Part shown: positions 2,780 through 47,525 of the stretch, in pieces
Layout of the letters: each line of letters opens with the position of its first letter
Position numbering within the stretch: the stretch's first letter is position 1
Assembly (NCBI GenBank): GCA_017541465.1
Contig: JAFXYZ010000017.1
Span: 1-64,000, forward strand
Source of the DNA: a bacterium
GTDB taxonomy: Bacteria; Cyanobacteriota; Vampirovibrionia; Gastranaerophilales; Gastranaerophilaceae
DNA: 64,000 bases
Direction: 5' to 3'
Translations under genes and position numbers: made by a program
The notes under the pieces: generated by a model
Database searches by the model: none
Seen by the model: the letters and a program-made list of their open reading frames with translations, nothing else
Told to the model about the DNA's origin: nothing

Positions 2780-4405
2780 ATGATTAACTTTGATTCACTG
2801 ACGTTAAAAGCCTTCCTGGAGGAAAACAAAGATTTTCTTGTCGGCGCAAGAATACAGAAAATCAAACAGTTTTCAAGAGCTGAAGTTATGCTTCAGCTTC
2901 ATAAATCAGGTGAAACAAGAAAATTATACATTAATATTAACCCCTCATGCTTTCACCTTTGTTTTATGAGCGAAGAGAACGAGAAAAAACGCGCTCTTGT
3001 TGCCCCAAAATCAGCGCTGATGTTCTGTATGCTTTTAAGAAAGTATATGGACGGGGTTAAAATCACTGACGTTCAGGTGCCAAAATATGAGAGAATTTTT
3101 GAAATATATTTTGATTATTATGTTTCGGAAGAAGAAAAAAACAGATATTGTCTTGCTGTTGAATTAATGGGAAAATACAGTAACATAATTCTCTATAATT
3201 ATGATACAAACGTAATTGCAGGCTGCTGCCACAACGTCAGCGCACAAAAGAGCAAGGAAAGAGAACTCTCAGGGCTTCTTCCCTATTCCTACCCTAAAAA
3301 ACAAAGAAAAAAAGATTTACTCAAAACGAGTTTTGAAGAGTTTCAGGCGGTTTTAAAAGAAAACAAAAATCTGAGCGAAGAGTTTTACTACCTCACAAAC
3401 GTCATTGTTGAAAATGCTTTTGGTCTGTCAGAAAACGAACATGAGCTTTATGAAAAATTAAGAAATCTTGTTTCTCTTTCCTCTGTTTCACCTTCAGTCA
3501 GCAACGATTTTGAACAGTTTTCGCTTTTAGATATTGAAAATGCAAAAAAATATGACAGCACAAACGAAATGATTGACGATTATTTCACATATCAGCAGAG
3601 CGAAAAAGCAGCAAATACAACAAAAATTAAACTTCTCTCTCACATAAATCAGCAGATAGAAAAGTTTGAAGAATTAAAAGAAAAGCAGGAAAAACTTGCC
3701 TTTGAAACAGGGACTATTGAGGAAAACAAAGAAAAGGCCGATTTGATTATGGCAAACCTCTATCAGTTAAAAGACGGGGAAAAAGCACTCAGAGCGGTTG
3801 ATTTTAACGGCAGAGAGGTTGTAATCTCCCTTGACGAAAACAAAAGCGGAAGTGAAAATGCAGAGCACTACTATACTCTTTATAAAAAATCAAAATCAGC
3901 AAGCGAAAAATCAAAAGAGTTATTGGAAGAAACCCTTAAAAGTTTAAAATACTGGGAAGAAAAGAGGCAAGAAGCTGAAGAAACAGAAGATGCAAAACTG
4001 CTTGAAACTCTTTCAAAAGAACTTCTGCCCCAACAAACTAAGCAAAACAACCAGAAAAAATCGGACAAAAATTTAGAAATGGTTGAATTTTTAGGGTTTA
4101 AAATCTATGTCGGGAAAAATGACAGGCAAAATGACTATTTGCTCTCAAAAATTTCATCACCCGAGGACTTATGGTTCCACCCTCTGAACGGCGCAGGGGC
4201 GCACGTTTTGATTAAGAAGAACAAAAACGGTGAAACAGTGCCTGATGAGGTCATATTAAAAGCCGCAAGACTCACAAAACAATATTCTTCATCAAAAAAT
4301 TCAACGAAAGTGCCGATTATATACACTAACCGAAAATACGTCAAAAAAGCAAACAACAAAATCGCTTTCGTTACCTATAAATATGAATCAGAGATTATGG
4401 TGTAA
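2780..4405 (+). CDS. rqcH: ribosome quality-control protein RqcH (NFACT family)
   Basis: 541 residues with the NFACT layout: N-terminal NFACT-N domain (about 1-220), a long charged coiled coil (about 280-410, rich in Lys/Glu), then the NFACT-R domain with DLWFHPLNGAGAHVLI, AARLTKQYSSSKNSTKVPIIYT and the ending YKYESEIMV. Family members bind the obstructed 50S subunit and direct C-terminal alanine tailing of stalled chains. Older annotation calls the family fibronectin-binding protein; no secretion signal is present here. It follows the thioesterase gene closely. Confidence 0.92.
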   Translation: MINFDSLTLKAFLEENKDFLVGARIQKIKQFSRAEVMLQLHKSGETRKLYININPSCFHLCFMSEENEKKRALVAPKSALMFCMLLRKYMDGVKITDVQVPKYERIFEIYFDYYVSEEEKNRYCLAVELMGKYSNIILYNYDTNVIAGCCHNVSAQKSKERELSGLLPYSYPKKQRKKDLLKTSFEEFQAVLKENKNLSEEFYYLTNVIVENAFGLSENEHELYEKLRNLVSLSSVSPSVSNDFEQFSLLDIENAKKYDSTNEMIDDYFTYQQSEKAANTTKIKLLSHINQQIEKFEELKEKQEKLAFETGTIEENKEKADLIMANLYQLKDGEKALRAVDFNGREVVISLDENKSGSENAEHYYTLYKKSKSASEKSKELLEETLKSLKYWEEKRQEAEETEDAKLLETLSKELLPQQTKQNNQKKSDKNLEMVEFLGFKIYVGKNDRQNDYLLSKISSPEDLWFHPLNGAGAHVLIKKNKNGETVPDEVILKAARLTKQYSSSKNSTKVPIIYTNRKYVKKANNKIAFVTYKYESEIMV

Positions 4406-4408
4406 AAA

Positions 4409-5251
4409 CTATTTTACAAACCCAAAAAACAAAAACCCTAAAATGCCGACAAAGAAACAGTAGTAGGCGAAGATTTTCATTGAGTATTTATTCAAAAATG
4501 CCATAAAATATTTAACGCACAAATACCCTGAAATCATTGAAACAACAAAACCGCCAAAAATTGAAAGCCAGCTGAAGCCCTTCAGAACCGAAAAATCAAT
4601 TTCCAAAATCGGATAAAATATTGACGTTCCCGCAATAATCAGGATAGACAAAAGAAACGAAAATCTTGCACTTTCAACTCTGGTTAAACCGCAAAACAGC
4701 CCTGTTGAAATTGTCATTCCCGACCTCGATACCCCGGGAAATGCCGCTATACCCTGCGCTATACCGACCATAATTGCCTGTTTCCAGGTCAGCTCATCTC
4801 TTTTCTGAATCTTAGCTCCGATAATTTCACTCAGCAAAATAACAGTAGCCGTCACGAGTAACAGACCACACACTATCCTCGGACTCGAAACAAGTTTTTC
4901 AGATATATCCTTCAGAGGATACGCGACAAGCAGGGTAAAAAATGTTCCCAAAATCAGAAATAACCCGAGTTTTGACTCTTTAGAATTAAAATCTTTGGTT
5001 TTTACAGACGTAAACAGCCCTTTTAAAATATTCAAAACATCTTTTCTGAAATAGAAAAGAACAGCAATCAAAGTGCCGAGGTGAAGAATAATATCCAAAA
5101 ACACCTCTTCACTCGTCGCAGCCGCCATTTCTTTATGGGTAAAAAACTTATATAATGCCGAAAAAATGACGAGATGCCCCGAGCTTGAAACGGGCAAAAA
5201 TTCCGTCAAGCCCTGAACAAACCCGAGTAATAATGAATGAAGAAGCTCCAT
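4409..5251 (-). CDS. uppP: undecaprenyl-diphosphate phosphatase UppP/BacA
   Basis: 280 residues, strongly hydrophobic with about eight membrane segments. The two family signatures are present: GLTEFLPVSSSGHL near the N-terminus and FPGVSRSGMT in the middle, which hold the catalytic Glu, Ser and Arg residues. It regenerates the undecaprenyl-phosphate carrier used for peptidoglycan and surface glycans. It lies 10 bases downstream of queD on the same strand, at the end of a malQ-queD-uppP run that may be one transcript. Confidence 0.96.
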   Translation of the reverse strand: MELLHSLLLGFVQGLTEFLPVSSSGHLVIFSALYKFFTHKEMAAATSEEVFLDIILHLGTLIAVLFYFRKDVLNILKGLFTSVKTKDFNSKESKLGLFLILGTFFTLLVAYPLKDISEKLVSSPRIVCGLLLVTATVILLSEIIGAKIQKRDELTWKQAIMVGIAQGIAAFPGVSRSGMTISTGLFCGLTRVESARFSFLLSILIIAGTSIFYPILEIDFSVLKGFSWLSIFGGFVVSMISGYLCVKYFMAFLNKYSMKIFAYYCFFVGILGFLFFGFVK

Positions 5252-36736: not shown

Positions 36737-39205
36737 ATGAATAAAGAAACGGCTTTAAAAATTTTAGAAATAAACGATAATAAAAATTTGTCTTATGAAG
36801 AAAAAATAAGTCAAATGGAAGAGCTTTTCAAAGAAGATATTGAGGCGCACTACAGTCTGAAAACAGGAAAAGCTTTCGGAAAAAGAAACTGCTTTATCCT
36901 TGAAGCCTTCAGTTCTTTATACAATTTTAAATCAAAATTCTGGATTTCTTCAGAAGAAAATCCCGAAATAAAACAAAATGAAAAGCCGACAGAATATGAA
37001 ATTATTACACAAGCAAGCAAAACAATAAAATATTCTCTCTATAATTACGACCAGTTATCAGACGATTATCGCGAAAAAATAAAGGAATCAAATAACAAAA
37101 CGGAAAAAGAAAACCCTATCGAAGAAAATCTGATAATATCAGACACACCCGAAAATTACGACAATTACAATTTAAAAGATTATTTATTATCGATATTCAA
37201 TAAAGAAGTCTATAACATCCGCAATAATCAAATTTTCAAATTCAGATATGGCTTTGAAGATAACCAAATTCATACTCTTGAAGATGCAGGAAATCGTTAT
37301 AATATATCAAGAGAGCGAGTCAGACAAATAACAACCAAAATTATTAAGCGTATAAAATTCAGGTGTAAAACAGCAAAGAGAAGAAATCTGTTTAATATCT
37401 TTTTATCCTTGTATTATTATCTGGAAACACTAAAAAAAGATTTAATGCATAATTCACAAAACAATTATATTAATCAAGAATATGCAGACAAAATATTAAC
37501 CCGGGAATTCGGAGTTAATGATTCAATATATTTACACCTGATAAACAACTTATGCGATACTTGTTTTGTTATTCAAAAAGAGGAAAAATCTTTTTCTGTA
37601 TTCATTAAAAATTGTAATATAAAAAAAGCAATATTGGCCTGTATAGAAGAGTTTAGCGGACAATACGGCATAAGCGGTATTGCAAAGATTTTAAAAGGCA
37701 GCAAACTGAAAGATAACTACCGAAACAATAATTCTAAAAATTCAAAATACTATGGAGTCTTTAAACAAATGACTCTTTCATCTATTACATCCGAAATTAA
37801 TGAATTATTAAAAGATGAAATGCTTGTCAGTTCAAAAGTCAGTTTTGGTTTGCCTGTTTTGAAAATCAACCCTGAATATAAAGAAAAAATTGACTGTTTT
37901 CCGGAAGAAAAACCTGTTGTAAATGATAACGATGATGAAAATATAAAGAGGGTTTTATATTTAATTAAACAAAACAAAAACCTATTTATAACAGGTCACG
38001 CAGGCACAGGGAAAAGTTATATTTTATCAAAACTGAAGGAAAAAATACCCTCTCTTGTTATCACCAGCACAACGGGAATAGCCGCCGTAAACGTAAAAGG
38101 ACAGACTCTTCACTCCTGGGCGGGAGTCGGAATTTGCAATTTGCCGATTAATACTATCGTTTCAAAAATTCTGAGAAAAGCTCAGGTCAAAAACAAAATT
38201 CAAAAATGTAAAATCTTAGCCGTTGATGAAATTTCAATGTTAAATATAAAAACTTTTGAATATGTTGATGCGGTTTTAAGACAGGTCAGAAATTGTGATG
38301 AACCTTTTGGCGGTATTCAGGTTATATTCATAGGCGATTTTTTCCAGCTCCCTCCTGTTGAAAAAAATGAAATTGTTCTTCAAAAATACTGTTTTGAATC
38401 ACCTTTATGGGAAGCTCTTGATTTAAAAACGGTTTTACTGACAAAAAATTACAGACAAAATGAAGAAAATCTGATAACGGCTCTTTCAAATATGAGGACT
38501 AATTCTCTGACGCAGGAGGATATAGCTTTATTAAGAACAAGAGAGAGCAGGGAAAATGACGATACCGCACTTCATATTTTTGCCACAAACCTTGAAGCAG
38601 ACAATTATAATAATTTAAAATTCAGGGCAATAAAATCAAAGGAATATAAGTTAATAGCTATAGACGGAGTATATAAGGGAACAAAATTAATAGAAACACC
38701 AACAACAGAGTGGGAAGAAACTCTTTTGAAAAGAATTGATGTTGTATGCAGCGCAGAGAAAAGTATTTCTTTAAAAATCGGCGCAAGAGTAATTCTTCTT
38801 ATTAATTTTGATTTTAAAAAAGGACTAATAAACGGCTCATGCGGTGAAGTTAAAGAAATCAACGATAATTATATTTTAATCAGATTTGATAACGGGCAGA
38901 CTGAACAAATTCCAAAACACGATTTTGAGTTTTATAACAACGACAAACTGATTGCACTAAGAAGACAATTTCCTTTAAAACTCGCATACGGAATAACCAT
39001 TCATAAATCTCAGGGAATGTCTTTGGATAAACTTGTTGTCGATTGTTCAAGAATTTTTGAAAAGGGACAGGCTTATGTCGCCCTGAGCAGAATAAGGACT
39101 TTAAACGGACTGTATCTCAAAAATTTCTCCCCTGCAAAGGTTATGGTTGATAATACGGTGGTTGAATTTTATAAAAATCTCAAAATCTTTGATGAGGAAA
39201 TTTGA
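36737..39205 (+). CDS. Pif1-like helicase with sigma-region-4-like and RQC-like domains
   Basis: 822 residues. Residues 165-225 read TLEDAGNRYNISRERVRQITTKIIKRI, the helix-turn-helix of sigma70 region 4. Residues ~295-375 (AILACIEEFSGQYGISGIAKILKGSK onward) resemble the winged RQC domain of RecQ. From ~415 the helicase core follows: Walker A GHAGTGKSY, AVDEISMLN, IFIGDFFQLPPV, and near the end YGITIHKSQGMSL and YVALSRIRTLNGL, as in Pif1/RecD2-type SF1B helicases. It lies next to the R-M island. Its role in DNA repair or replication is inferred. Confidence 0.82.
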   Translation: MNKETALKILEINDNKNLSYEEKISQMEELFKEDIEAHYSLKTGKAFGKRNCFILEAFSSLYNFKSKFWISSEENPEIKQNEKPTEYEIITQASKTIKYSLYNYDQLSDDYREKIKESNNKTEKENPIEENLIISDTPENYDNYNLKDYLLSIFNKEVYNIRNNQIFKFRYGFEDNQIHTLEDAGNRYNISRERVRQITTKIIKRIKFRCKTAKRRNLFNIFLSLYYYLETLKKDLMHNSQNNYINQEYADKILTREFGVNDSIYLHLINNLCDTCFVIQKEEKSFSVFIKNCNIKKAILACIEEFSGQYGISGIAKILKGSKLKDNYRNNNSKNSKYYGVFKQMTLSSITSEINELLKDEMLVSSKVSFGLPVLKINPEYKEKIDCFPEEKPVVNDNDDENIKRVLYLIKQNKNLFITGHAGTGKSYILSKLKEKIPSLVITSTTGIAAVNVKGQTLHSWAGVGICNLPINTIVSKILRKAQVKNKIQKCKILAVDEISMLNIKTFEYVDAVLRQVRNCDEPFGGIQVIFIGDFFQLPPVEKNEIVLQKYCFESPLWEALDLKTVLLTKNYRQNEENLITALSNMRTNSLTQEDIALLRTRESRENDDTALHIFATNLEADNYNNLKFRAIKSKEYKLIAIDGVYKGTKLIETPTTEWEETLLKRIDVVCSAEKSISLKIGARVILLINFDFKKGLINGSCGEVKEINDNYILIRFDNGQTEQIPKHDFEFYNNDKLIALRRQFPLKLAYGITIHKSQGMSLDKLVVDCSRIFEKGQAYVALSRIRTLNGLYLKNFSPAKVMVDNTVVEFYKNLKIFDEEI

Positions 39206-39229: not shown

Positions 39230-40210
39230 TCAGGTATTTTTGGAATAGTTCCCGTATTCTTTTTTTACCATTTCCCCCTGTTTAAAAATTCTGTATTTAA
39301 ACCAGTTAAGGAAGGTTTGAGGTCCGAGGACTTTTATTGTAGGTCCGAAGGACAAAAGTTTTATCAAAACCTCCGTTTCATCATTGTTTCTGTAATAAAT
39401 TTTTGTCCTGCAAATTTTTTCTTCATCGTCAAACTCGCTGTTTTTTTGGTAAGCCGAAAACTCCACCATAAAACGTTCTATGGCATTTCTTTCGTCATAA
39501 ATTTCCACCTCAATCGGCTCGGCGCAGTCAAATTTTTCAATATGCACTTCAAAATTTAATTCCACATCATAATTTTCATGGGAATTTCTGACCTCAAGCA
39601 CTCTGCCCATATTTAAGAAAACGTAATCGGATATTCTGCCCTCTAAAACCCTTGCGGCAAAGAACCTGAACTTGTCATCTTTTGGCGAAAACTCGAATTT
39701 TAAAGGGATATAGTGCCCCACCGTTACCCTGTTCCTTTTAGGGCTTTGATAAATGATTTTCACCACCTTTTTATTATCCATGGCTTCGTTTATTCTGCGG
39801 AAAGATTTTTGGTAGTTAAAATTACCGAAATCATCACCGTCAGAGTATTTATCGTAGTATTTAAACTGTGCTTGTTCATATAAAGGCTCGGTTTCAGCCA
39901 ATTTTGATTTGTCAAAATCTTCTGAAAACAAGTCAAACCGAACATCTTGCGAAACAGATTTCAGCCATGATTTTTCAATTTTCGTTAAAGGCATTTTGAT
40001 TTTATTTTCTAAAAGCGAATAATATTTATCCCCCTTCTTCTCAATAAACGGAAGGATTTCAAGTTTTGGCAGAAGGTGAAAACAGCTCTCGGCGAAACCG
40101 TTTTCATTAATGATATTTTTGATTTCCTCTTCAGTCAAAGGCGAGTTATTGACAATTTCCTCAATAACCTTATAATAACAGCCGAAAATTTCAGAGAACA
40201 GACTATCCAT
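39230..40210 (-). CDS. WYL-domain transcriptional regulator 2 of the RNA-repair locus
   Basis: About 326 residues. The WYL-type region is at 145-240 (KKVVKIIYQSPKRNRVTVGHYIPLKFEFSPKDDKFRFFAARV), followed by a WCX-like C-terminal extension. GGAGGTG lies 7 bases before the ATG at 40210, which overlaps the end of the upstream WYL gene by 8 bases; the longer frame from 40249 is not needed. WYL proteins bind nucleic-acid-type ligands and control DNA-damage, CRISPR and RNA-repair genes. It is last in the minus arm. Confidence 0.82.
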   Translation of the reverse strand: MDSLFSEIFGCYYKVIEEIVNNSPLTEEEIKNIINENGFAESCFHLLPKLEILPFIEKKGDKYYSLLENKIKMPLTKIEKSWLKSVSQDVRFDLFSEDFDKSKLAETEPLYEQAQFKYYDKYSDGDDFGNFNYQKSFRRINEAMDNKKVVKIIYQSPKRNRVTVGHYIPLKFEFSPKDDKFRFFAARVLEGRISDYVFLNMGRVLEVRNSHENYDVELNFEVHIEKFDCAEPIEVEIYDERNAIERFMVEFSAYQKNSEFDDEEKICRTKIYYRNNDETEVLIKLLSFGPTIKVLGPQTFLNWFKYRIFKQGEMVKKEYGNYSKNT

Positions 40211-41429
40211 TTTCACCTCCGTACATTTCCAGCATTTGTTTAATATCACTATAAAAAAGCCTTATAACTTTTTTGTTATCGCCTTTTAGCTCAACAATTC
40301 TGCCGATAAAGGTTTTTATCCAGGGAGTAAGCTCGTTTGTATCATAAACATCGGTTGAATATTTGTAGAGATTATCACCGATTTTCTCGACTTTTCCGCC
40401 CCTGCCCTCTCTTTCTAACCTCTGGATAATATAATCTTCGGTTTCTTCATCAAGAGATAAGGTCATTTCAAAGTGCTCTACCCGGCCTTCTCTAATCAGC
40501 GCAGTTGAAAACGAAGTTTTAAAACATTCTTCAAGTGTTGATTTCAGCTGTTCAAAATTTTCGTCTTTTTCTAAAATTTTGACATTTTTTATATAGTCAA
40601 GCCGATAAACCGAAAATCTGTATTTGCCCTTCCCCTGCGCAATTACATACCTTCTTCCCGTCTGAACACTGACATAGATTATCAGAGGAAGAATATTAAA
40701 TTTGCTTTTGTTTTCATATCTTGGGGAAAAATTTTCTATTTCAACCCGTTTCTGGTCCTTTATTGCGCTTATTATACCGAGCAAAATATTGTCCTCAAGT
40801 GTGTTTACAATAAAATTGTGCTTAAACTGAAATTTTGTATTTTTATTATTGATACGGTCATTGATAAAACTCCCGATTACCCCAAACGGCGCCATTTCGC
40901 TGAAGAAATTCAGCGCATCTTTTGAGATGCCCAAATCTTCAAAATCACATTTGTTCAGAGAATAAAAATGCGCTTTTTTCTCTTTTTCTGCAGTAATAAT
41001 TCCGTATTCTATATATTCCTTCAGTTTATTTCTGACAGTCTGGGGCTCAAAAAGAATTTCCGCCCTGTCGTTGATTTTGTCCGTAATTTCTTCAAGCGAA
41101 AACCTGCCCCCACCCGACAAAATATCCAAAATCAAAAAGTGAAGAATAATATCGTTATCGGTAAAACTCTTTGATTTATAGGCTTTATAAAACGGGTTAG
41201 AGGGAATTTTTGAGGAATCAACAGAGATAAAAATTTTCTTTCCGTTTTCGCTGTATTCCCACTTTGTTAAATTGCCGAGGTAATTTTCAATTCTTCTTCT
41301 TTCGTTGTCGTAGGTGCGTTTGCTCTTTTGATTAAAATCGTTTCTGGTCTTAAACCCGAACACAAAAAACTCACGCATATAATCTCTTATGCGCCCGAAG
41401 TTTTTAATTAATTCAGAGTATTCAGACAT
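40203..41429 (-). CDS. WYL-domain transcriptional regulator 1 of the RNA-repair locus
   Basis: About 408 residues from MSEYSELI. The N-terminal part includes a winged-helix segment (FSLEEITDKINDRAEILFEPQTVRNKLKEYIEYGIITAE). The WYL domain follows near 225-300 (KDQKRVEIENFSPRYENKSKFNILPLIIYVSVQTGRRYVIAQ). The WCX-like end has VELKGDNKKVIRLF. It starts 13 bases after the Thg1-like gene and is coupled to the second WYL gene. Two tandem WYL genes with one HTH may act as a hetero-oligomer. Confidence 0.83.
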   Translation of the reverse strand: MSEYSELIKNFGRIRDYMREFFVFGFKTRNDFNQKSKRTYDNERRRIENYLGNLTKWEYSENGKKIFISVDSSKIPSNPFYKAYKSKSFTDNDIILHFLILDILSGGGRFSLEEITDKINDRAEILFEPQTVRNKLKEYIEYGIITAEKEKKAHFYSLNKCDFEDLGISKDALNFFSEMAPFGVIGSFINDRINNKNTKFQFKHNFIVNTLEDNILLGIISAIKDQKRVEIENFSPRYENKSKFNILPLIIYVSVQTGRRYVIAQGKGKYRFSVYRLDYIKNVKILEKDENFEQLKSTLEECFKTSFSTALIREGRVEHFEMTLSLDEETEDYIIQRLEREGRGGKVEKIGDNLYKYSTDVYDTNELTPWIKTFIGRIVELKGDNKKVIRLFYSDIKQMLEMYGGENG

Positions 41430-41442
41430 TTTTCGACCTCTT

Positions 41443-42198
41443 TTATTTAACAAATTGCTCTATAAATTTTGCATAATTCTGACCGGAGGGTAAATCAAAA
41501 TCTGTAAATAATTTTTTTCTTGTTGTTGTTTCCCTTTCATTTTTAACAGGATTAAACCCGACTTTTTCAACTGTTTTAAAGTAAACTCCAAAGCCGTAAA
41601 TTTCCCATTTCGGAATACTATTTAAATTTATTCCGTAGGTTGATAAAATAAATTCTTTTTCATCCAAAATTTTACCGCTAAGTTCTTTTTCTGCTTCAGC
41701 AGGAGTTTTTCCGTCTGATAATAACTTATAAAAACAGTGCGCATAGACAGAATTTCTGTGTGAATCTTCTCTTCGCCACAAAAAATAATCCTTAACATCT
41801 TCAACAGAGAGAAGGGGAATAATTCTGCAGTCAAAGACGGCGGTCGTATTCATAAGCTGAGAGAATTTTACACTTGCCTCTGCCGAGAGAAGAGAATTAT
41901 ATTTTCTGACTTTTCTTCCGAATAAATTCGTATTTTTTCTGAATAATAGAGAAATTTCATCACTTTCGCTGTAAGCATAAGCAATGTCAAAATCGGAATC
42001 CATCAGATAATAAATCGTTTGAATAATTGCATCTCTGAAGGTTTCGTCAAACGGACGTTTGAGGGATAATTTTTCTTTTGTAAGTTTAGTAAACCCTTTC
42101 CCGTCAAGACGCGCGACCATATAACAGTCCTGAGGAACAGTCTGGTCTATTGATTGTTCAAATTTTCTCATTTTTTCATCAAAATCGTCAAATTTCAT
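41443..42198 (-). CDS. Thg1-like 3'-5' RNA polymerase (tRNA-His guanylyltransferase family)
   Basis: 251 residues of the Thg1 superfamily. The metal-binding aspartates are visible: D32 in ARLDGKGFTKLT and D80-E81 in YSESDEISLLF. KYNSLLSAEASVKFSQLM and the WRREDSHRNSVYAHCF element also match. Bacterial Thg1-like proteins add nucleotides in the 3'-5' direction to repair tRNA 5' ends; eukaryotic Thg1 adds G-1 to tRNA-His. It overlaps the kinase gene by 4 bases. A tRNA-His gene lies 3 kb away on the other arm. Confidence 0.9.
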   Translation of the reverse strand: MKFDDFDEKMRKFEQSIDQTVPQDCYMVARLDGKGFTKLTKEKLSLKRPFDETFRDAIIQTIYYLMDSDFDIAYAYSESDEISLLFRKNTNLFGRKVRKYNSLLSAEASVKFSQLMNTTAVFDCRIIPLLSVEDVKDYFLWRREDSHRNSVYAHCFYKLLSDGKTPAEAEKELSGKILDEKEFILSTYGINLNSIPKWEIYGFGVYFKTVEKVGFNPVKNERETTTRKKLFTDFDLPSGQNYAKFIEQFVK

Positions 42199-42644
42199 AG
42201 TGTTTCATCCCACTTGCTTAGGTGAAATTTATTATTTTCTATCTTTACATAATAGAGCTCATCAAAGTTTTCACCGTAACTTGGTTGTTTTAGTTTTTTT
42301 GCCGAAGATAAAATGGCTTTTAAAGGAACTTTATTCCCGCGCGCAAGATTTCTTTTTGAACACTCATCAACGGTTGAGCGGAAATATATTCCGACTTTTT
42401 TATATCCGTCTGCAATATCAATATATTTTTTTCTTTCTTCTATAGTCAAATTAGTGTTATCAATAACAAAATTTTTTCCTGTCCGAATTAAATCAGAAAT
42501 CATTTTATCTTCTTTTTTTCGGGTTTTTAAGATATCAAGGCTGACAATATCAAAACCGGCAAAATATTCTCTGGAAAAAGTTGTTTTTCCGCTTGCCTGA
42601 AGTCCGATTAATATAAAAATTGTTTTTTGATAATCTTTGAACAT
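42195..42644 (-). CDS. polynucleotide-kinase-like P-loop kinase
   Basis: 149 residues. Walker A is GLQASGKTT (14-22). A downstream SLDILKTRKKEDK and VIDNTNLTIEERKKYIDIA match the kinase domain of T4 Pnk-like and related zeta-toxin-type small kinases. It would phosphorylate RNA or DNA 5' ends, or remove/transfer phosphates in end healing. It is the first gene of the minus arm, facing the noncoding RNA array, and is translationally coupled to the Thg1-like gene. The substrate is inferred from context. Confidence 0.82.
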   Translation of the reverse strand: MFKDYQKTIFILIGLQASGKTTFSREYFAGFDIVSLDILKTRKKEDKMISDLIRTGKNFVIDNTNLTIEERKKYIDIADGYKKVGIYFRSTVDECSKRNLARGNKVPLKAILSSAKKLKQPSYGENFDELYYVKIENNKFHLSKWDETL

Positions 42645-42840: not shown

Positions 42841-42900
42841 CGAAAGGTACTGACAGCAAAGTTTAGAATAGACTGTAAATCTATGTGAACTCGTACTTTG
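42841..42900 (+). ncRNA. Y-RNA-like unit 1, with Tyr-type anticodon arm
   Basis: The closing stem CGAAAGGTAC/GTACTTTG has a bulged G. ACAGCAAA follows the 5' strand. Inside, GTTTA/TGAAC (42861-42865, 42886-42890) encloses ATAGA/TCTAT with the 7-base loop CTGTAAA (42868-42884), which is an anticodon arm of tRNA-Tyr (GUA). No protein can be read from it. The Y-RNA assignment rests on structure and on the Ro60-like gene downstream. Confidence 0.65.
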
Positions 42901-43028
42901 AAAGGTACATACTGCAAACAAAATTTAGCTCCACTATCGGCTACAACTCAAACCCGCTCTGATTATTACGTTCAGGTAAGTGGGGTTGTACCGGTAATTT
43001 CAGGATATGCTAACCTGAGTGTACCTTG
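42900..43028 (+). ncRNA. Y-RNA-like unit 2
   Basis: The closing stem AAGGTAC (42902-42908) with GTACCTT (43021-43027) is followed by TACTGCAAAC, close to the ACAGCAAA of other units. The longest unit (about 129 bases), with inner hairpins including CAGG...CCTG near the 3' end. GTTTTT after the stem could end transcription or be a processing site. Confidence 0.6.
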
Positions 43029-43049
43029 TTTTTAAAACCAAATAAAAAA

Positions 43050-43128
43050 GGAATACTTTGGCAGTTATGCCATGCCGTCATCTCAAGACGATACGTGAGT
43101 TTGTGCAGACCTGCGCACAAAATATTCC
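43050..43128 (+). ncRNA. Y-RNA-like unit 3
   Basis: Closing stem GGAATA/TATTCC. Inside are GGCA/TGCC, a CGTC/GACG stem with a 7-base loop ATCTCAA (43076-43090), and TTTGTGC/GCGCACAAA. It is the most diverged unit; ACAGCAAA is replaced by a GGCAGTTA-like sequence. Confidence 0.55.
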
Positions 43129-43129
43129 T

Positions 43130-43208
43130 GAGGTGTAAACAGCAAATACCAAGATTGAACTAATAATTATAATTAGTGATCTGCTTCGGCAGGATAAAAT
43201 GCACCTCG
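43130..43208 (+). ncRNA. Y-RNA-like unit 4
   Basis: Closing stem GAGGTG (43130-43135) and CACCTC (43202-43207). TAAACAGCAAAT follows the 5' strand. Inside are CTAAT/ATTAG with a 7-base loop and CTGC-TTCG-GCAG, a UUCG tetraloop hairpin. It starts two bases after unit 3. Confidence 0.62.
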
Positions 43209-43226
43209 CTAAAATTTAATATTATT

Positions 43227-43270
43227 CTTTAAACTGCCTTGTAAAAAGAGGTTAGATATACAGTTTAAAG
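43227..43270 (+). ncRNA. hairpin element between units 4 and 5
   Basis: A perfect 10-bp stem CTTTAAACTG/CAGTTTAAAG with a 24-base loop. It does not share the ACAGCAAA motif. It may be a processing signal or a shortened unit. Confidence 0.45.
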
Positions 43271-43272
43271 AA

Positions 43273-43380
43273 GAGGTATTAACAGCAAAAACCGATTAGC
43301 AGTGTCGCTCCTCTGCGTCTGATTTTTAATCAGAAGTTATGGAGCCGGAAAGGAAACTTTCCGTTCGGAACAGTACCTCG
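43273..43380 (+). ncRNA. Y-RNA-like unit 5, with Lys-type anticodon arm
   Basis: Closing stem GAGGTA (43273-43278) and TACCTC (43374-43379), followed by TTAACAGCAAAA. Inside, GCTCC/GGAGC (43307-43311, 43341-43345) encloses TCTGA/TCAGA with loop TTTTTAA (43318-43334), an anticodon arm of tRNA-Lys (UUU). Next come a GGAAAG-GAAA-CTTTCC hairpin with a GNRA loop (43347-43362) and GTT-CGG-AAC. The tRNA-like core within a Y-type stem is clearest here. Confidence 0.68.
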
Positions 43381-43385
43381 GAAGC

Positions 43386-43440
43386 GACCTGCGAGCAGAG
43401 GATGAGAGCGAAAGCGAAATCCGTTTAATGCGAGCAGGTC
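43386..43440 (+). ncRNA. structured leader element before the TROVE gene
   Basis: GACCTGC (43386-43392) pairs with GCAGGTC (43434-43440), enclosing GGAT/ATCC and GC-GAAA-GC. A further hairpin AGGGG/CCCCT (43453-43469) precedes the gene. It could be a sixth small RNA or a 5'-UTR regulatory structure. Confidence 0.45.
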
Positions 43441-43505
43441 AAGAAGCTGGAGAGGGGAAGAATACCCCTCCTCCTCTTCAAAAAAAAATGAAAGGACAAA
43501 ACACA

Positions 43506-44963
43506 ATGTTAAACTATTTAAAACAGGAAGCAAATAAAACAGAAACGCTAAATGGCGCAACAACCTATATTTCAAGCGGAAAGTTTTGTCTTGATTTATT
43601 TTCCTCAATAGGCGCATTGAGAAACTGCAGTGAAAAAGAAATTTTAAAGCGGTTCCACAGAGCCTTTTGCGAAGATAAAAATCTTGCGATGAAAATTCTT
43701 TTCTATGCAAGAGATATTCGTGGCGGATTAGGTGAAAGAAAGGTTTTCAGAACGATTATTAAAAACCTTCCCCGAACTTCTCATAATGCTCTGGTTAAGA
43801 ATATAAAAAATATCCCCGAATACGGGCGGTATGATGACCTTCTTGAGCTTATGGACACTTCTTGCAAAAAAGAAGTTGTTGAGTTTATCAGGGAACAACT
43901 GAAAAATGATATTGCAAATATTGAAACGGACAAGGTTTCTCTGCTTGCAAAGTGGCTCCCTTCGGTTAATGCAACAAACCCCCAAACCGTAAAACTCGCC
44001 AAAAGGCTTGCCCAGTGTTTAAATATGAGCGAAAAAGAGTATCGTCAGACACTCTCAAAACTTCGTGCAAAGATTAAAATTATTGAAAATAACCTTAGAG
44101 AAAAAGATTACTCTTTTGATTACTCAAAACAGCCCTCAAAAGCCATGTTTAAGTACAAAAAAGCATTTATCAGGAACGACAAAGAGCGCTATGAAGAGTT
44201 TTTAAACAAAGTTCAGTCGGGCGAAACGAAGATGAATACGAAAACTCTATATCCTTATGATATTGTAAGACCGATTGTTCACAGTACAATGATGACCGAA
44301 AGTGTGCAAAAAGCTGTTGAGACAGCCTGGAACTCGCTTCCGAATTATACAAAAGACGAAAATGCTCTTGTTTTGCTCGATACCTCGGGTTCAATGTACT
44401 ATGGCGGAAACCCAAAACCTGTCGATGTTGCAATGGCTTTAACCATATATTTTTCAGAAAGATGTAAGGGAAAATTCGCAAATCACTTTATTATGTTTTC
44501 CAAAACACCTCAGTTAATTGAAATAAAAGGTGAAAATCTTTATCAAAAAGTCAAATATTGTATGAGTTTTAACCAAATTGCAAATACCGACCTGATGAAG
44601 GTATTTAAATTAATACTTAAAACAGCAGTGAAGTATAATCTTCCGCAGGAAGAAATGCCTGAAAAACTCTATATCATTTCAGATATGGAATTTGATGAAG
44701 GGTTTACAAATGCAGACTTAACAAACTTTGAATATGCAAAGAAACTGTTTCAAAGAAAACATTATAAACTGCCAAAAATCGTATTCTGGAATGTAAACTC
44801 ATGGCAACAACAAGTTCCCGTAAAAGAAAATGAACAGGGCGCAGTGCTGGTTTCAGGTTGCACTCCAAAAATATTTGAAATGGTAATGGAGGGCGAAACT
44901 TCACCTTATAAGTTTATGCTCGACACACTCAACAATGAAAGGTACGAAAAGATAAGTGCATAA
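43506..44963 (+). CDS. Ro60/Rsr-like TROVE-vWA RNA-binding protein
   Basis: About 485 residues. Residues 1-270 are a TROVE-like helical-repeat region (SSGKFCLDLFSSIGALRNCSE, KILFYARDIRGGLGERKVFR, KWLPSVNATN). The C-terminal half is a von Willebrand A domain with MIDAS DTSGSM. Proteins of this build (TROVE or DUF2828) form rings that bind Y RNAs and misfolded RNAs. The frame extends upstream to 43428 through a hairpin; AAAGGA before the ATG at 43506 decides the start. Its position between the noncoding array and tRNA/rtcB genes strongly supports an RNA role. Confidence 0.85.
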   Translation: MLNYLKQEANKTETLNGATTYISSGKFCLDLFSSIGALRNCSEKEILKRFHRAFCEDKNLAMKILFYARDIRGGLGERKVFRTIIKNLPRTSHNALVKNIKNIPEYGRYDDLLELMDTSCKKEVVEFIREQLKNDIANIETDKVSLLAKWLPSVNATNPQTVKLAKRLAQCLNMSEKEYRQTLSKLRAKIKIIENNLREKDYSFDYSKQPSKAMFKYKKAFIRNDKERYEEFLNKVQSGETKMNTKTLYPYDIVRPIVHSTMMTESVQKAVETAWNSLPNYTKDENALVLLDTSGSMYYGGNPKPVDVAMALTIYFSERCKGKFANHFIMFSKTPQLIEIKGENLYQKVKYCMSFNQIANTDLMKVFKLILKTAVKYNLPQEEMPEKLYIISDMEFDEGFTNADLTNFEYAKKLFQRKHYKLPKIVFWNVNSWQQQVPVKENEQGAVLVSGCTPKIFEMVMEGETSPYKFMLDTLNNERYEKISA

Positions 44964-45122: not shown

Positions 45123-45125
45123 CAT

Positions 45126-45198
45126 GGCTCTGTAGCTCAGGCGGTAGAGCGCGGCCCTGAAAAGGCCGGCGTCACTTGTTCAAATCAAGTCGGAGCTA
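45126..45198 (+). tRNA. tRNA-Phe (anticodon GAA)
   Basis: Acceptor GGCTCTG/CGGAGCT (1-72 is a G-U wobble, unusual), anticodon stem CGGCC/GGCCG with loop CTGAAAA, T arm ACTTG/CAAGT with loop TTCAAAT. Discriminator A, no encoded CCA. The weak first pair may suit end trimming or repair. Confidence 0.85.
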
Positions 45199-45207
45199 AA
45201 TTTATAT

Positions 45208-45282
45208 GGTGCCTGTAGTTTAACGGTAAAACCCTCGTCTGTGGAACGGGCGATGAGGGTTCGACTCCCTCCGGGCACACCA
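45208..45282 (+). tRNA. tRNA-His (anticodon GTG) with A73
   Basis: Acceptor GTGCCTG/CGGGCAC, D arm GTTT/AAAC, anticodon stem CTCGT/ACGGG with loop CTGTGGA, T arm GAGGG/CCCTC. The base before G1 is G (a possible encoded G-1), but the discriminator is A instead of the usual bacterial C73, so G-1 would not be paired. ACCA at the end may be an encoded CCA. Relevant to the Thg1-like gene nearby. Confidence 0.88.
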
Positions 45283-45305: not shown

Positions 45306-45306
45306 A
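45306..45306 (+). other. start point of the rtcB coding unit directly after the tRNA cluster
   Basis: Only 23 bases lie between the tRNA-His CCA and the rtcB ATG, with AAAGGAAAAA as ribosome site and no separate promoter visible. The rtcB message must therefore be released by processing of the tRNA cluster. Confidence 0.5.
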
Positions 45307-46529
45307 TGAAAGAAATCATCGGACAATTTAACAGCGCAAAGGTTTTCATCGATTCGGCAGATGAAAAATCACTTAACCAGATTCAGGAGCTTTGCAACCA
45401 GGAATTTATCAAAGGAAGCAGAATTCGTATCATGCCTGATGTTCACGCAGGGGCAGGATGCACAATAGGAACAACAATGACTATAGTTGATAAGGTTGTT
45501 CCGAACCTTGTTGGTGTTGATATCGGGTGCGGTATGGAAACAATTTTGCTTGAAGAAAAGACTATTGATTTTGAAAAATTTGACAGGTTTATTTATGACA
45601 ATATTCCTTCAGGCATGGAGGTCAGAACAACTCCCCACAAATATGCAGATGAAACCGAAATCAGTGAATTAAAATGCTTCCGAATGATTAAACAACACAG
45701 GGCAATTCACAGTATCGGCACACTCGGGGGCGGTAATCATTTTATTGAAATAGATAAAGATGAGGAGGGTAATTTATATCTCGTTATCCACTCGGGAAGC
45801 AGATATTTGGGAAAAGAAACTGCAGAATACTATCAGGAGGAAGCCTATAATCAATTAAACAACTGTTCAAGAAAAATGATTGATGAATTAATCGCCCAAT
45901 TAAAAGCGCAGGGGAAAAGAACTGAAATTCCTTCAAGAGTTGAGGAATTAAAAAAACAGATAATAACCGATATTCCAAAATCTCTCGCCTATGCAAGCGG
46001 ATATTTGTTTGATGATTATATCCACGATATGAAAATTGTGCAAAAATATGCCGTTTTAAACAGAAAAGCCATGGCGGAGGAAATAATTAAAGGGTTGAAT
46101 TTGACCGTCAGAGAAGAGTTTACGACTATCCACAATTACATAGATACCGAATCGATGATTTTAAGAAAAGGGGCGGTATCGGCGAAAAAAGGTGAAAAAC
46201 TTTTAATACCGATTAATATGAGGGATGGAAGTTTAATCTGCACGGGAAAAGGAAACGAGGACTGGAACTGCTCGGCTCCCCACGGCGCAGGAAGATTATT
46301 CAGCAGAACTCAGGCAAAGAAAAATTTTACCGTTGAAGAGTTTAAAAAATCAATGGCTGGAATTTTTACCACCTCCCTGAACGAAGAAACTTTAGACGAA
46401 TGTCCTATGGCATACAAAACAATGGACGATATTGTAAACAACATCTCTCCGACCGCCGAAATAACAAAAATCATAAAGCCCGTTTATAACTTCAAAGCAA
46501 GTGAAACTTTTTTGGGGTTCAGAAAATGA
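45306..46529 (+). CDS. rtcB: RNA-splicing ligase RtcB
   Basis: 407 residues. Family blocks are clear: MPDVHAGAGCTIGTTMTI, GVDIGCGMET (metal-binding Cys), LGGGNHFIEI, HSGSRYLG, and H326 in CSAPHGAGRLFSR, the guanylated histidine. RtcB joins 2',3'-cyclic phosphate or 3'-phosphate RNA ends to 5'-OH ends, repairing tRNAs cut by anticodon nucleases. This is a short-type RtcB compared with the ~480-residue archaeal enzyme. It follows four tRNA genes and overlaps the next small gene by 4 bases. Confidence 0.95.
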   Translation: MKEIIGQFNSAKVFIDSADEKSLNQIQELCNQEFIKGSRIRIMPDVHAGAGCTIGTTMTIVDKVVPNLVGVDIGCGMETILLEEKTIDFEKFDRFIYDNIPSGMEVRTTPHKYADETEISELKCFRMIKQHRAIHSIGTLGGGNHFIEIDKDEEGNLYLVIHSGSRYLGKETAEYYQEEAYNQLNNCSRKMIDELIAQLKAQGKRTEIPSRVEELKKQIITDIPKSLAYASGYLFDDYIHDMKIVQKYAVLNRKAMAEEIIKGLNLTVREEFTTIHNYIDTESMILRKGAVSAKKGEKLLIPINMRDGSLICTGKGNEDWNCSAPHGAGRLFSRTQAKKNFTVEEFKKSMAGIFTTSLNEETLDECPMAYKTMDDIVNNISPTAEITKIIKPVYNFKASETFLGFRK

Positions 46530-46756
46530 AAGTCGGGTTTAAATGGAAATCGATAGAAGGGCTCTCAAGAGGAAAACTGTTTAAAATAACGGAAATTACT
46601 TCTGAGAAGGTTTTCTATAAATCGGAAGAAACAGGAAAAATTTACTGCGCCGACAGAAAATTCTTTGAAAAATATATTGAAAGAGTAAACAAATTCTGGT
46701 CAGAAAAAAATAAAACGTACAAAAATAAAAAAGAAAAACTGAAAAATGAAAGATAA
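46526..46756 (+). CDS. small basic protein of the RNA-repair operon
   Basis: 76 residues, Lys-rich, with a C-terminal stretch of alternating Lys/Asn/Glu (KNKTYKNKKEKLKNER). The beta-rich N-terminal half (GFKWKSIEGLSRGKLFKITEI) may be a small barrel. It is coupled to rtcB (4-base overlap) and to the nucleotidyltransferase gene (11-base overlap). No known family recognised. The charge fits RNA binding. Confidence 0.65.
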   Translation: MKVGFKWKSIEGLSRGKLFKITEITSEKVFYKSEETGKIYCADRKFFEKYIERVNKFWSEKNKTYKNKKEKLKNER

Positions 46757-47525
46757 AATAAAAACTTTACTTCAGCAAACGGAAAAAGATAACGGTATAA
46801 AAATTCTTTTTGCGATAGAAAACGGAAGCCGTTCCTGGGGAATGGCAAGCAAAGACAGTGATTTTGATGTTCGTTTTGTGTTCTTCCGCGAAATAAAATA
46901 CTATCTTTCCCTGAGCAAAAAAGAAGAAGTTTTAAATTCCTCTTTCGATAAAAACCTCAACCCCTGCCCTGTTCAGGGGGCTTTGGTTGATATATGCGGT
47001 TTTGATATTTTTAAATATTTAAAGTTACTGTTATCTTCAAACCCGACTACTATCGAATGGCTCAACTCCCCGATTGTCTATTATGGGGATAATAACCTTT
47101 CGCTAAGAGGATATATGAAGGAAAATTTTAATCAGGAAAGGTTATTCAGGCACTATTTTTCTTTGTTTAAAAACAACTACAGAGAATTTATCCAGCTCGG
47201 AAAAGCAATAACCTATAAAAAATATCTCTACTCTATGAGAGGGCTTTTAAATGCAAAATATGTTTATGAGTTTAACAAAATTCCTCCGCTTGATTTAAGA
47301 CAAACCGTTGAAGAAGTCAAAAACCTTATTCCGAAAAAAGTTTATGAAAAAATTGAAGAGGTTATAAAAATAAAATCTCTCGGGCTTGAAAGAGATACTA
47401 TTTTGAGAATAGAAGAATTTGACGAATTTTTTAACTCGGAACTTCAAAAAGAATATCAAAACTTCAACCCTAAAAAACCTGATGTAAAAGTGTTAAATGA
47501 GTTTTTGGAAAAGATTTTTATATAA
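46746..47525 (+). CDS. RlaP-type DNA polymerase beta-fold nucleotidyltransferase
   Basis: 259 residues. The nucleotidyltransferase motif is ENGSRSWGMASKDSDFDVRFVF, with the Gly-Ser and the Asp-x-Asp metal site. The later WLNSPIVYYGD and the helical C-terminal part match the family called RlaP, which is associated with RtcB-type RNA repair and is thought to add nucleotides to RNA ends. It closes the plus arm and overlaps the convergent glycosylase gene by 8 bases. Confidence 0.87.
   Translation: MKDKIKTLLQQTEKDNGIKILFAIENGSRSWGMASKDSDFDVRFVFFREIKYYLSLSKKEEVLNSSFDKNLNPCPVQGALVDICGFDIFKYLKLLLSSNPTTIEWLNSPIVYYGDNNLSLRGYMKENFNQERLFRHYFSLFKNNYREFIQLGKAITYKKYLYSMRGLLNAKYVYEFNKIPPLDLRQTVEEVKNLIPKKVYEKIEEVIKIKSLGLERDTILRIEEFDEFFNSELQKEYQNFNPKKPDVKVLNEFLEKIFI

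Follow-up and report, generated by a model that had tools for sequence, protein, structure and literature searches.

A tandem array of candidate Y-RNA-like RNAs upstream of a Ro-like gene in an RNA-repair neighbourhood of a Gastranaerophilales bacterium

Among the closest described systems is the rsr-yrlBA-rtcBA operon of Salmonella, which responds to cut tRNAs and in which YrlA has been proposed to act as a competitive inhibitor of an anticodon nuclease (PMC7790460). In Deinococcus, a Y RNA tethers the Ro ring to PNPase (PMC7790460, PMC8394870). RNA-repair systems in a survey of jumbo phages include TROVE proteins, RlaP and Thg1 (PMC7824862), and candidate Y RNAs of mycobacteriophages were reported earlier, as PMC12282133 states in citing Chen 2014; on that testimony the general kind of RNA discussed here is known.

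The window, by which we mean the whole stretch of 64,000 nucleotides that was analysed (contig JAFXYZ010000017.1 of assembly GCA_017541465.1, from a member of the Gastranaerophilaceae), contains a Ro-like gene preceded by an array of short structured units. As in the Salmonella operon, which has been linked to damaged tRNAs, a Ro protein, Y RNAs or RNAs resembling them, and RtcB stand together; unlike that operon, the window shows neither RtcA nor RtcR among the neighbours and has instead a WYL pair, a Thg1-like polymerase, a kinase, RlaP and tRNA genes. Homologous loci from other records are given L numbers where they need to be told apart.

39230-40249, minus strand: companion of the WYL regulator, without a Pfam match; the pair is conserved
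40203-41453, minus strand: WYL-domain regulator, with homologs beside the Ro-like gene in L006, L007, L008, L010 and L011
41443-42198, minus strand: Thg1-like 3'-5' RNA polymerase (PF04446, E 2.7e-30)
42195-42644, minus strand: P-loop kinase resembling polynucleotide kinase (AAA_33; weak Pnkp and PSTK matches)
43506-44963, plus strand: Ro-like gene (DUF2828 + DUF7788; phrog_850), helical array and vWA domain with MIDAS residues
44976-45282, plus strand: tRNA-Gln(TTG), tRNA-Met(CAT), tRNA-Phe(GAA) and tRNA-His(GTG)
45306-46529, plus strand: RtcB RNA ligase (PF01139, E 1e-64)
46746-47525, plus strand: RlaP, RNA-repair nucleotidyltransferase (PF10127, E 3.7e-54)

Several peculiarities of this neighbourhood may be recorded here. 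The tRNA-His of the cluster (45209-45282) has a body unlike that of the genome's canonical copy and carries A73 opposite an encoded G-1, with the Thg1-like gene nearby; the canonical copy ends C73-type. The tRNA-Phe(GAA) at 45125-45199 is the sole tRNA-Phe found in the assembly, which may be without some tRNAs, Lys(UUU) being also absent from it. The protein encoded at 36737-39205 combines sigma70 region 4, RQC and PIF1 helicase domains.

The preliminary description of this DNA, made from its letters, had called the gene beside the array TROVE-vWA. The vWA domain stands, as does, by prediction, the kinship in fold; the family assignment does not, since Pfam TROVE (PF05731) finds no match in the protein, which belongs to the DUF2828/DUF7788 branch (PF11443 and PF25043) and matches phrog_850, 'RNA-binding protein', in PHROGs. 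An AlphaFold2 model of moderate quality, built with cellular relatives (pLDDT 71, pTM 0.59, TM 0.44 to Ro) was submitted to Foldseek, whose ten best PDB matches are all Ro60, Rsr or TROVE structures (E 1.5e-8 to the best, 9kop, and 7.4e-6 to Rsr 2nvo), and the protein is predicted to have the Ro60/Rsr fold of a helical ring and a vWA domain. Its family profile picks up classical TROVE proteins weakly (E 2e-4), and the MIDAS residues D292, S294, S296, T361 and D393 are invariant among 24 homologs. Bacterial occurrence of this branch is patchy, with 4 further matching genomes among 288 of the family and 3 strong matches in 386 genomes of the phylum, the window's own included; in phages it is common (681 records), and this distribution suggests that the DUF2828 Ro branch has spread horizontally. 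The phrog_850/DUF2828 proteins of mycobacteriophages, Listeria phages and others are of the window's family, at about 40% identity, and units flank their genes too, but the window copy is chromosomal and is accompanied by WYL regulators, a Thg1-like polymerase, a PNK-like kinase, RtcB and RlaP.

Between the minus-strand kinase and polymerase genes and the Ro-like gene lie about 860 bases without a credible ORF. Five units had been described there, four of them with a shared motif, and the count is literally right; only four belong to the RNA class defined below, 'unit 3' being without its signature. Scores in the following list are those of the held-out model introduced further on.

42842-42900, plus strand: unit 1, stem AAGGTAC/GTACTTT with ACAGCAA bulge; 12.8 bits
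42868-42884, plus strand: Tyr(GUA)-type anticodon stem-loop ATAGA-CTGTAAA-TCTAT in unit 1, matching the host tRNA-Tyr loop
42901-43029, plus strand: unit 2, stem AAGGTACAT/(GT)GTACCTT with the variant ACTGCAA; 26.2 bits
43050-43128, plus strand: 'unit 3' hairpin, paired ends, no ACAGCAA, outside the class
43129-43209, plus strand: unit 4, stem GAGGTGTA/TGCACCTC with ACAGCAA; 16.1 bits
43225-43272, plus strand: perfect 12-bp hairpin between units 4 and 5
43272-43380, plus strand: unit 5, stem GAGGTATT/AGTACCTC with ACAGCAA; 17.1 bits
43318-43334, plus strand: Lys(UUU)-type anticodon stem-loop TCTGA-TTTTTAA-TCAGA in unit 5
43443-43479, plus strand: leader hairpin GAAG..GGGGAAGAATACCCC..CTTC before the Ro-like ORF, kept in L006 and L010

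Common to the four class members are a terminal stem, ACAGCAA (once ACTGCAA) straight after the 5' arm, and a 3' (U)UG. Read directly, the paired arms are AAAGGTAC..GTACTTTG in unit 1, AAGGTACAT..(GT)GTACCTTG in unit 2, GAGGTGTA..TGCACCTCG in unit 4 and GAGGTATT..AGTACCTCG in unit 5, each 5' arm being followed by (A)CAGCAAA or ACTGCAAA; at the RNA level units 1 and 2 start with AAAGG and end with CUUUG or CCUUG, and units 4 and 5 start with GAGG and end with CCUCG. The 12-bp hairpin is a possible candidate for a processing element. A strong promoter or terminator was not seen, so that the RNAs may be transcribed singly or be processed from one leader. Rfam, at gathering score and at E up to 5, returned nothing relevant for the array. 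Single-sequence folding gave z values of -0.6, -3.19, -2.52, -2.3 and -3.84 for units 1 to 5, modest against shuffles, and because the folds are only moderately better than those of shuffled sequences we brought in relatives as evidence. The two nearest are L006 and L010, both MAGs (75-77%). In alignment with them unit 5 is the most conserved unit; unit 1 has a near-identical counterpart in L010, unit 2 has homologs in both, reading ACAGCAA where the window has ACTGCAA, and unit 4 corresponds to L006:4653-4772. A GC-richer structured insert at 43386-43440, between unit 5 and the leader hairpin, is missing from both relatives.

In the spirit of the check proposed with the preliminary description, a model was built, here from units of other loci, and it bore the array out; the observation is confirmed as real. 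A short covariance model (R1) fitted short units but, owing to its limited scan length, missed those with long interiors and found 0 window units; it was replaced by a pair-plus-motif scan made for this work. The held-out version of that model was built from 52 training units, with the window array and L006 and L010 left out, and was run on Ro-like-gene loci from bacterial MAGs, phages and plasmids. Within the array it finds exactly the four units, at 12.8-26.2 bits, and does not recover 'unit 3'; shuffled 64-kb strands reach at most 9.6 bits and antisense at most 5.5. The next plus-strand match in the window after the four units, in one run of the held-out model, scored 3.5 bits. An extra plus-strand match at 285-431 scored 25.9 bits, far over the shuffled maximum of 9.6; we reject it as a unit, as it lies within a coding frame (ORF 178-603) resembling the C-terminal part of MnmE, and it is probably due to chance. 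Over 25 loci there are 76 matches of at least 12 bits, this coding-sequence match included, and the antisense maximum with the same model is 6.3 bits over 283 kb of loci.

The arms differ between units and yet stay paired, as had been claimed, and the claim extends well beyond the array. In 63 aligned homologous units all seven of seven stem pairs covary, with 149 compensatory cells against 35.5 in shuffles, and 99.5% of stem cells pair against 33-46% in slid controls. These 63 units were chosen for pairing, so that the unbiased weight is carried by two other measures. Scanning 14 loci for ACAGCAA with pairing arms turned up 30 sense-strand units, 0 antisense ones and 0.8 in shuffles; over all loci the motif found 59, where permuted motifs averaged 2.85 with a maximum of 25 that probably belongs to a shifted form of ACAGCAA itself. 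In a structure-blind test, 57 of the 80 exact sense-strand occurrences of ACAGCAA in Ro-like loci are followed by a fully complementary 7-nt arm; on the antisense strand 0 of 8 are, and at random positions 14%.

The same RNAs adjoin Ro-like genes in Clostridia, plasmids and phages. Their consensus is A-AAG-RYRC-NN-ACAGCAA, a variable interior, and G-YRY-CUU-G-U, in units of about 45 to 135 nt in which ACAGCAA is nearly invariant. Five units in tandem had been thought unusual; the expectation does not hold for this class. Aeromonas phage LAh_6 carries 8 units, Bacillus phage vB_BcoS-136 carries 9, interspersed with tRNA genes, a sheep-gut Clostridia MAG has at least 5 and Listeria phages have 3. 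Several copies, tandem or dispersed, are the rule, and the number in the array is therefore no surprise. At 20 classical TROVE loci of the phylum we found 0 units, and the ACAGCAA signature therefore goes with the DUF2828 Ro branch. Two further observations concern members in other loci: L004r, L013:2583, L029:3509, L056, L059 and L061 hold short units with a second motif like CUUUCAUUAGGCGAAAAAG and a small hairpin, which look, from their sequence, as if they formed a subtype, and in Sinorhizobium phage phiN3 (L024:1518-1659) a 21-bp stem surrounds ACAGCAA and a permuted T-arm/D-arm tRNA-like module, the length of that stem being nearer to YrlA.

Published RNA-seq of Listeria phage CKA15 was considered as proof of expression and set aside: the transcripts concerned, CKA15_059-061, correspond to L018:3004-3314, and the units lie at 4149-4413. 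CKA15_059-061 are that phage's most abundant RNAs, two of the genes accounting for about 67% of phage transcripts at 40 min, and are without homologs according to the paper (PMC12282133). They (L018:3004-3314; L014:2410-3000) make up a noncoding RNA region of their own, which lies some 1 kb upstream of the units; other highly transcribed CKA15 regions of that paper could be sites of units.

The Y-RNA identity put forward in the preliminary description survives in part. The units are structured and noncoding and stand upstream of a gene of Ro/TROVE-vWA type; they have no Rfam match and are not canonical YrlA. YrlA (RF02553) and the class are alike in lying beside a gene for a Ro fold (Rsr or Ro60 in the case of YrlA) and RtcB, in having a stem closed by the 5' and 3' ends, which is conserved by pairing in the units, and in a tRNA-like module, which in the window is present only as the anticodon stem-loops of units 1 and 5. 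At its gathering score of 69, RF02553 matches no class member, the best partial match being 41.4 bits (L008). The Ro-binding stem of YrlA is without ACAGCAA, whereas the units carry it as a bulge; the units, moreover, come several to an array, with diverse interiors (anticodon loops, whole tRNA cores), and their partner is of the DUF2828/DUF7788 type, not PF05731. Rfam's sole YrlA match in the window's own genome falls on the tRNA-Met/tRNA-Phe junction and is rejected as an artefact of permuted tRNA order.

The interiors often resemble parts of tRNAs. Hairpins with 5 bp in the stem and 7 nt in a loop of anticodon or T type occur in 19 of 67 interiors, compared with 0.92 +- 0.89 in dinucleotide shuffles; by this hairpin-loop test about 70% of units have no tRNA piece, and in the window two of four are recognisable (units 1 and 5). 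The loops match what we take to be those of tRNAs for Tyr (CTGTAAA), Asn (CTGTTAA), Phe (CTGAAAA), Met (CTCATAA), Lys (CTTTTAA), Ser (CTGCTAA) and His (TTGTGGT). Unit 1 repeats an 11-nt core of the host tRNA-Tyr anticodon arm, and GACTGTAAATC has 4 copies in the 2.1-Mb genome: host tRNA-Tyr(gta), unit 1 and two further places. In the L006 homolog of unit 1 the arms are kept and the loop is TTGTGGT, that of the canonical tRNA-His of the window genome. The assembly yielded no host tRNA gene for Lys(UUU) with which unit 5 could be compared. Copied parts across the class include anticodon loops, T-arms and permuted or near-whole tRNAs: L016:3414-3476, within a unit, matches the Rfam tRNA model at 45.7 bits, units of L008 and L013 have a T-arm and then a D-arm, in permuted order as in YrlA, and at L008:4822-4888 the YrlA model matches with its tRNA-like half (41.4 bits, E 4e-8).

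We propose that small Y-RNA-like RNAs are produced from the array and serve the adjoining Ro-like ring protein, their likely partner, and we consider it probable that they are adaptors or decoys of that ring in a tRNA-repair locus. The constant part, a 7-9 bp terminal stem with unpaired 5'-side ACAGCAA and 3' UG, would likely be the docking site, and the variable interior the effector module, often a tRNA piece (anticodon stem-loop, T-arm, permuted T-arm/D-arm or near-whole core). Each unit would be a separate RNA bound by the Ro-like protein and, we infer, induced by damage; the resulting RNP would work upon tRNA cutting, its mimic modules serving either as nuclease decoys or as scaffolds by which damaged tRNA and the enzymes that act on tRNA are kept at the Ro ring. 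The PNK-like kinase, the Thg1-like polymerase, RlaP and RtcB would mend the ends, the local tRNA genes would refill the pool, and the WYL regulators would control the locus. A Ro-like ring with exchangeable tRNA-mimic RNAs amid enzymes that heal and seal RNA ends fits a tRNA-damage response.

Much of this could also be accommodated if the units were classical bacterial Y RNAs, which would control access to the Ro ring and attach to it an exonuclease such as PNPase that degrades structured RNA, the tRNA-like pieces contributing only to stability or to the recruitment of modification enzymes. The genomic association and the build, a terminal stem with a tRNA-like module, would be the same; the partial YrlA match in L008 and the PNPase tether of Deinococcus (PMC7790460, PMC8394870) point in that direction as well. 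We nevertheless regard this reading as unlikely, given the lack of ACAGCAA in the Ro-binding stem of YrlA, the absence of units from classical TROVE loci, and the differing anticodon loops within one array, which suggest more than one tether.

An array that acted in cis, as a leader of stacked hairpins steering translation, stability or processing of the Ro-like mRNA, would be expected on the same strand as the gene and close to it, and the window units do lie on one strand, at most 670 bases upstream of the Ro-like ORF, with the conserved leader hairpin just 5' of the start codon. Yet in LeBron, S-CoN_Ph2 and Alsa_4 the units are 3' of the Ro-like gene, in BcoS-136, FADO and bumzen they are scattered between tRNA genes, and the constant part joins both ends of the RNA, as in free-standing RNAs; a cis-acting leader seems to us distinctly improbable. 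Least credible of all are hairpins repeated by chance, or a mobile repeat of REP type that has no function as RNA. The likeness of unit 1 to unit 2 (84% over the first 19 nt) and of unit 4 to unit 5 (86% over 21 nt) is what such a repeat might leave behind, but covariation, strand bias and the linkage of motif and arms across phyla and phages, together with the near absence of units elsewhere in the window, speak strongly against either.

A second resemblance leads outside the prokaryotes. Class I RNAs of social amoebas start with AAG, end with CUGU and have a covarying terminal stem, the 11-nt CCUUACAGCAA on the 5' side and a variable interior; they were reported absent outside Dictyostelia, the one bacterium tested being Myxococcus xanthus (PMC7919456). 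These features recur, to a varying extent, in phage units. The AAG start and CUGU end are exact in the ValKK3 unit, which reads AAGTAATCTTACAGCAA...GGATTACTGT, and in several LAh_6 units; CCUU upstream of ACAGCAA, part of CCUUACAGCAA, is seen in some phage units only, and window unit 2 has ACTGCAA. The amoeba-built Rfam model RF01414 (Dicty_Class_I_RNA) matches a unit in L008 and, on 17 phage and plasmid records bearing a Ro-like gene, gives 19 matches at E<=0.1 where about 1.7 are expected. Thirteen of the 19 are units beside the Ro-like gene, 7 of them in LAh_6, and 4 of the remaining 6 score as units in an independent model, making 17 of 19. The best match, at 31.8 bits (E 4.4e-5), is under the gathering score of 41.5; RF01414 has no match in the window genome, window units included, and on 7 phages without a Ro-like gene it gave 2 matches, 0 of them units. 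Class I RNAs differ in being 42-65 nt long, in having a promoter element of their own (DUSE), in being known from social amoebas only, in their binding protein known so far, the RRM protein Rnp1A, and in the distance between the conserved G and the motif, which is 1-2 nt greater than in prokaryotic units. As judged from sequence the resemblance is a strong lead and not membership, because RF01414 scores fall below the cut-off, the window units are unmatched and the DUF2828 partner in amoebas is putative. We hold tentatively, with somewhat more doubt than belief, that Class I RNAs and the units of prokaryotes and phages form a single class, related through descent or transfer, marked by the terminal stem with ACAGCAA, bound by DUF2828 Ro proteins and acting in prokaryotes and phages as decoys of anticodon nucleases. 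If it is true, Class I RNAs would be Y-RNA-like adaptors and no amoeba-specific invention, and the bacterial and phage class would consist of interchangeable tRNA-mimic decoys against anticodon nucleases.

In the literature, which our search covered partially, we found no earlier description of the ACAGCAA signature, of the anticodon-loop mimicry or of the amoeba resemblance. A widespread class of RNAs that goes with DUF2828-type Ro proteins, with their 681 phage records, gains a definition in sequence. Since the interiors copy chosen parts of tRNAs, one can now test directly for roles as decoy or scaffold when tRNAs are damaged; and for the dictyostelid Class I RNAs, which are abundant, orphan and reported from amoebas only, there is a hypothesis of both partner and function.
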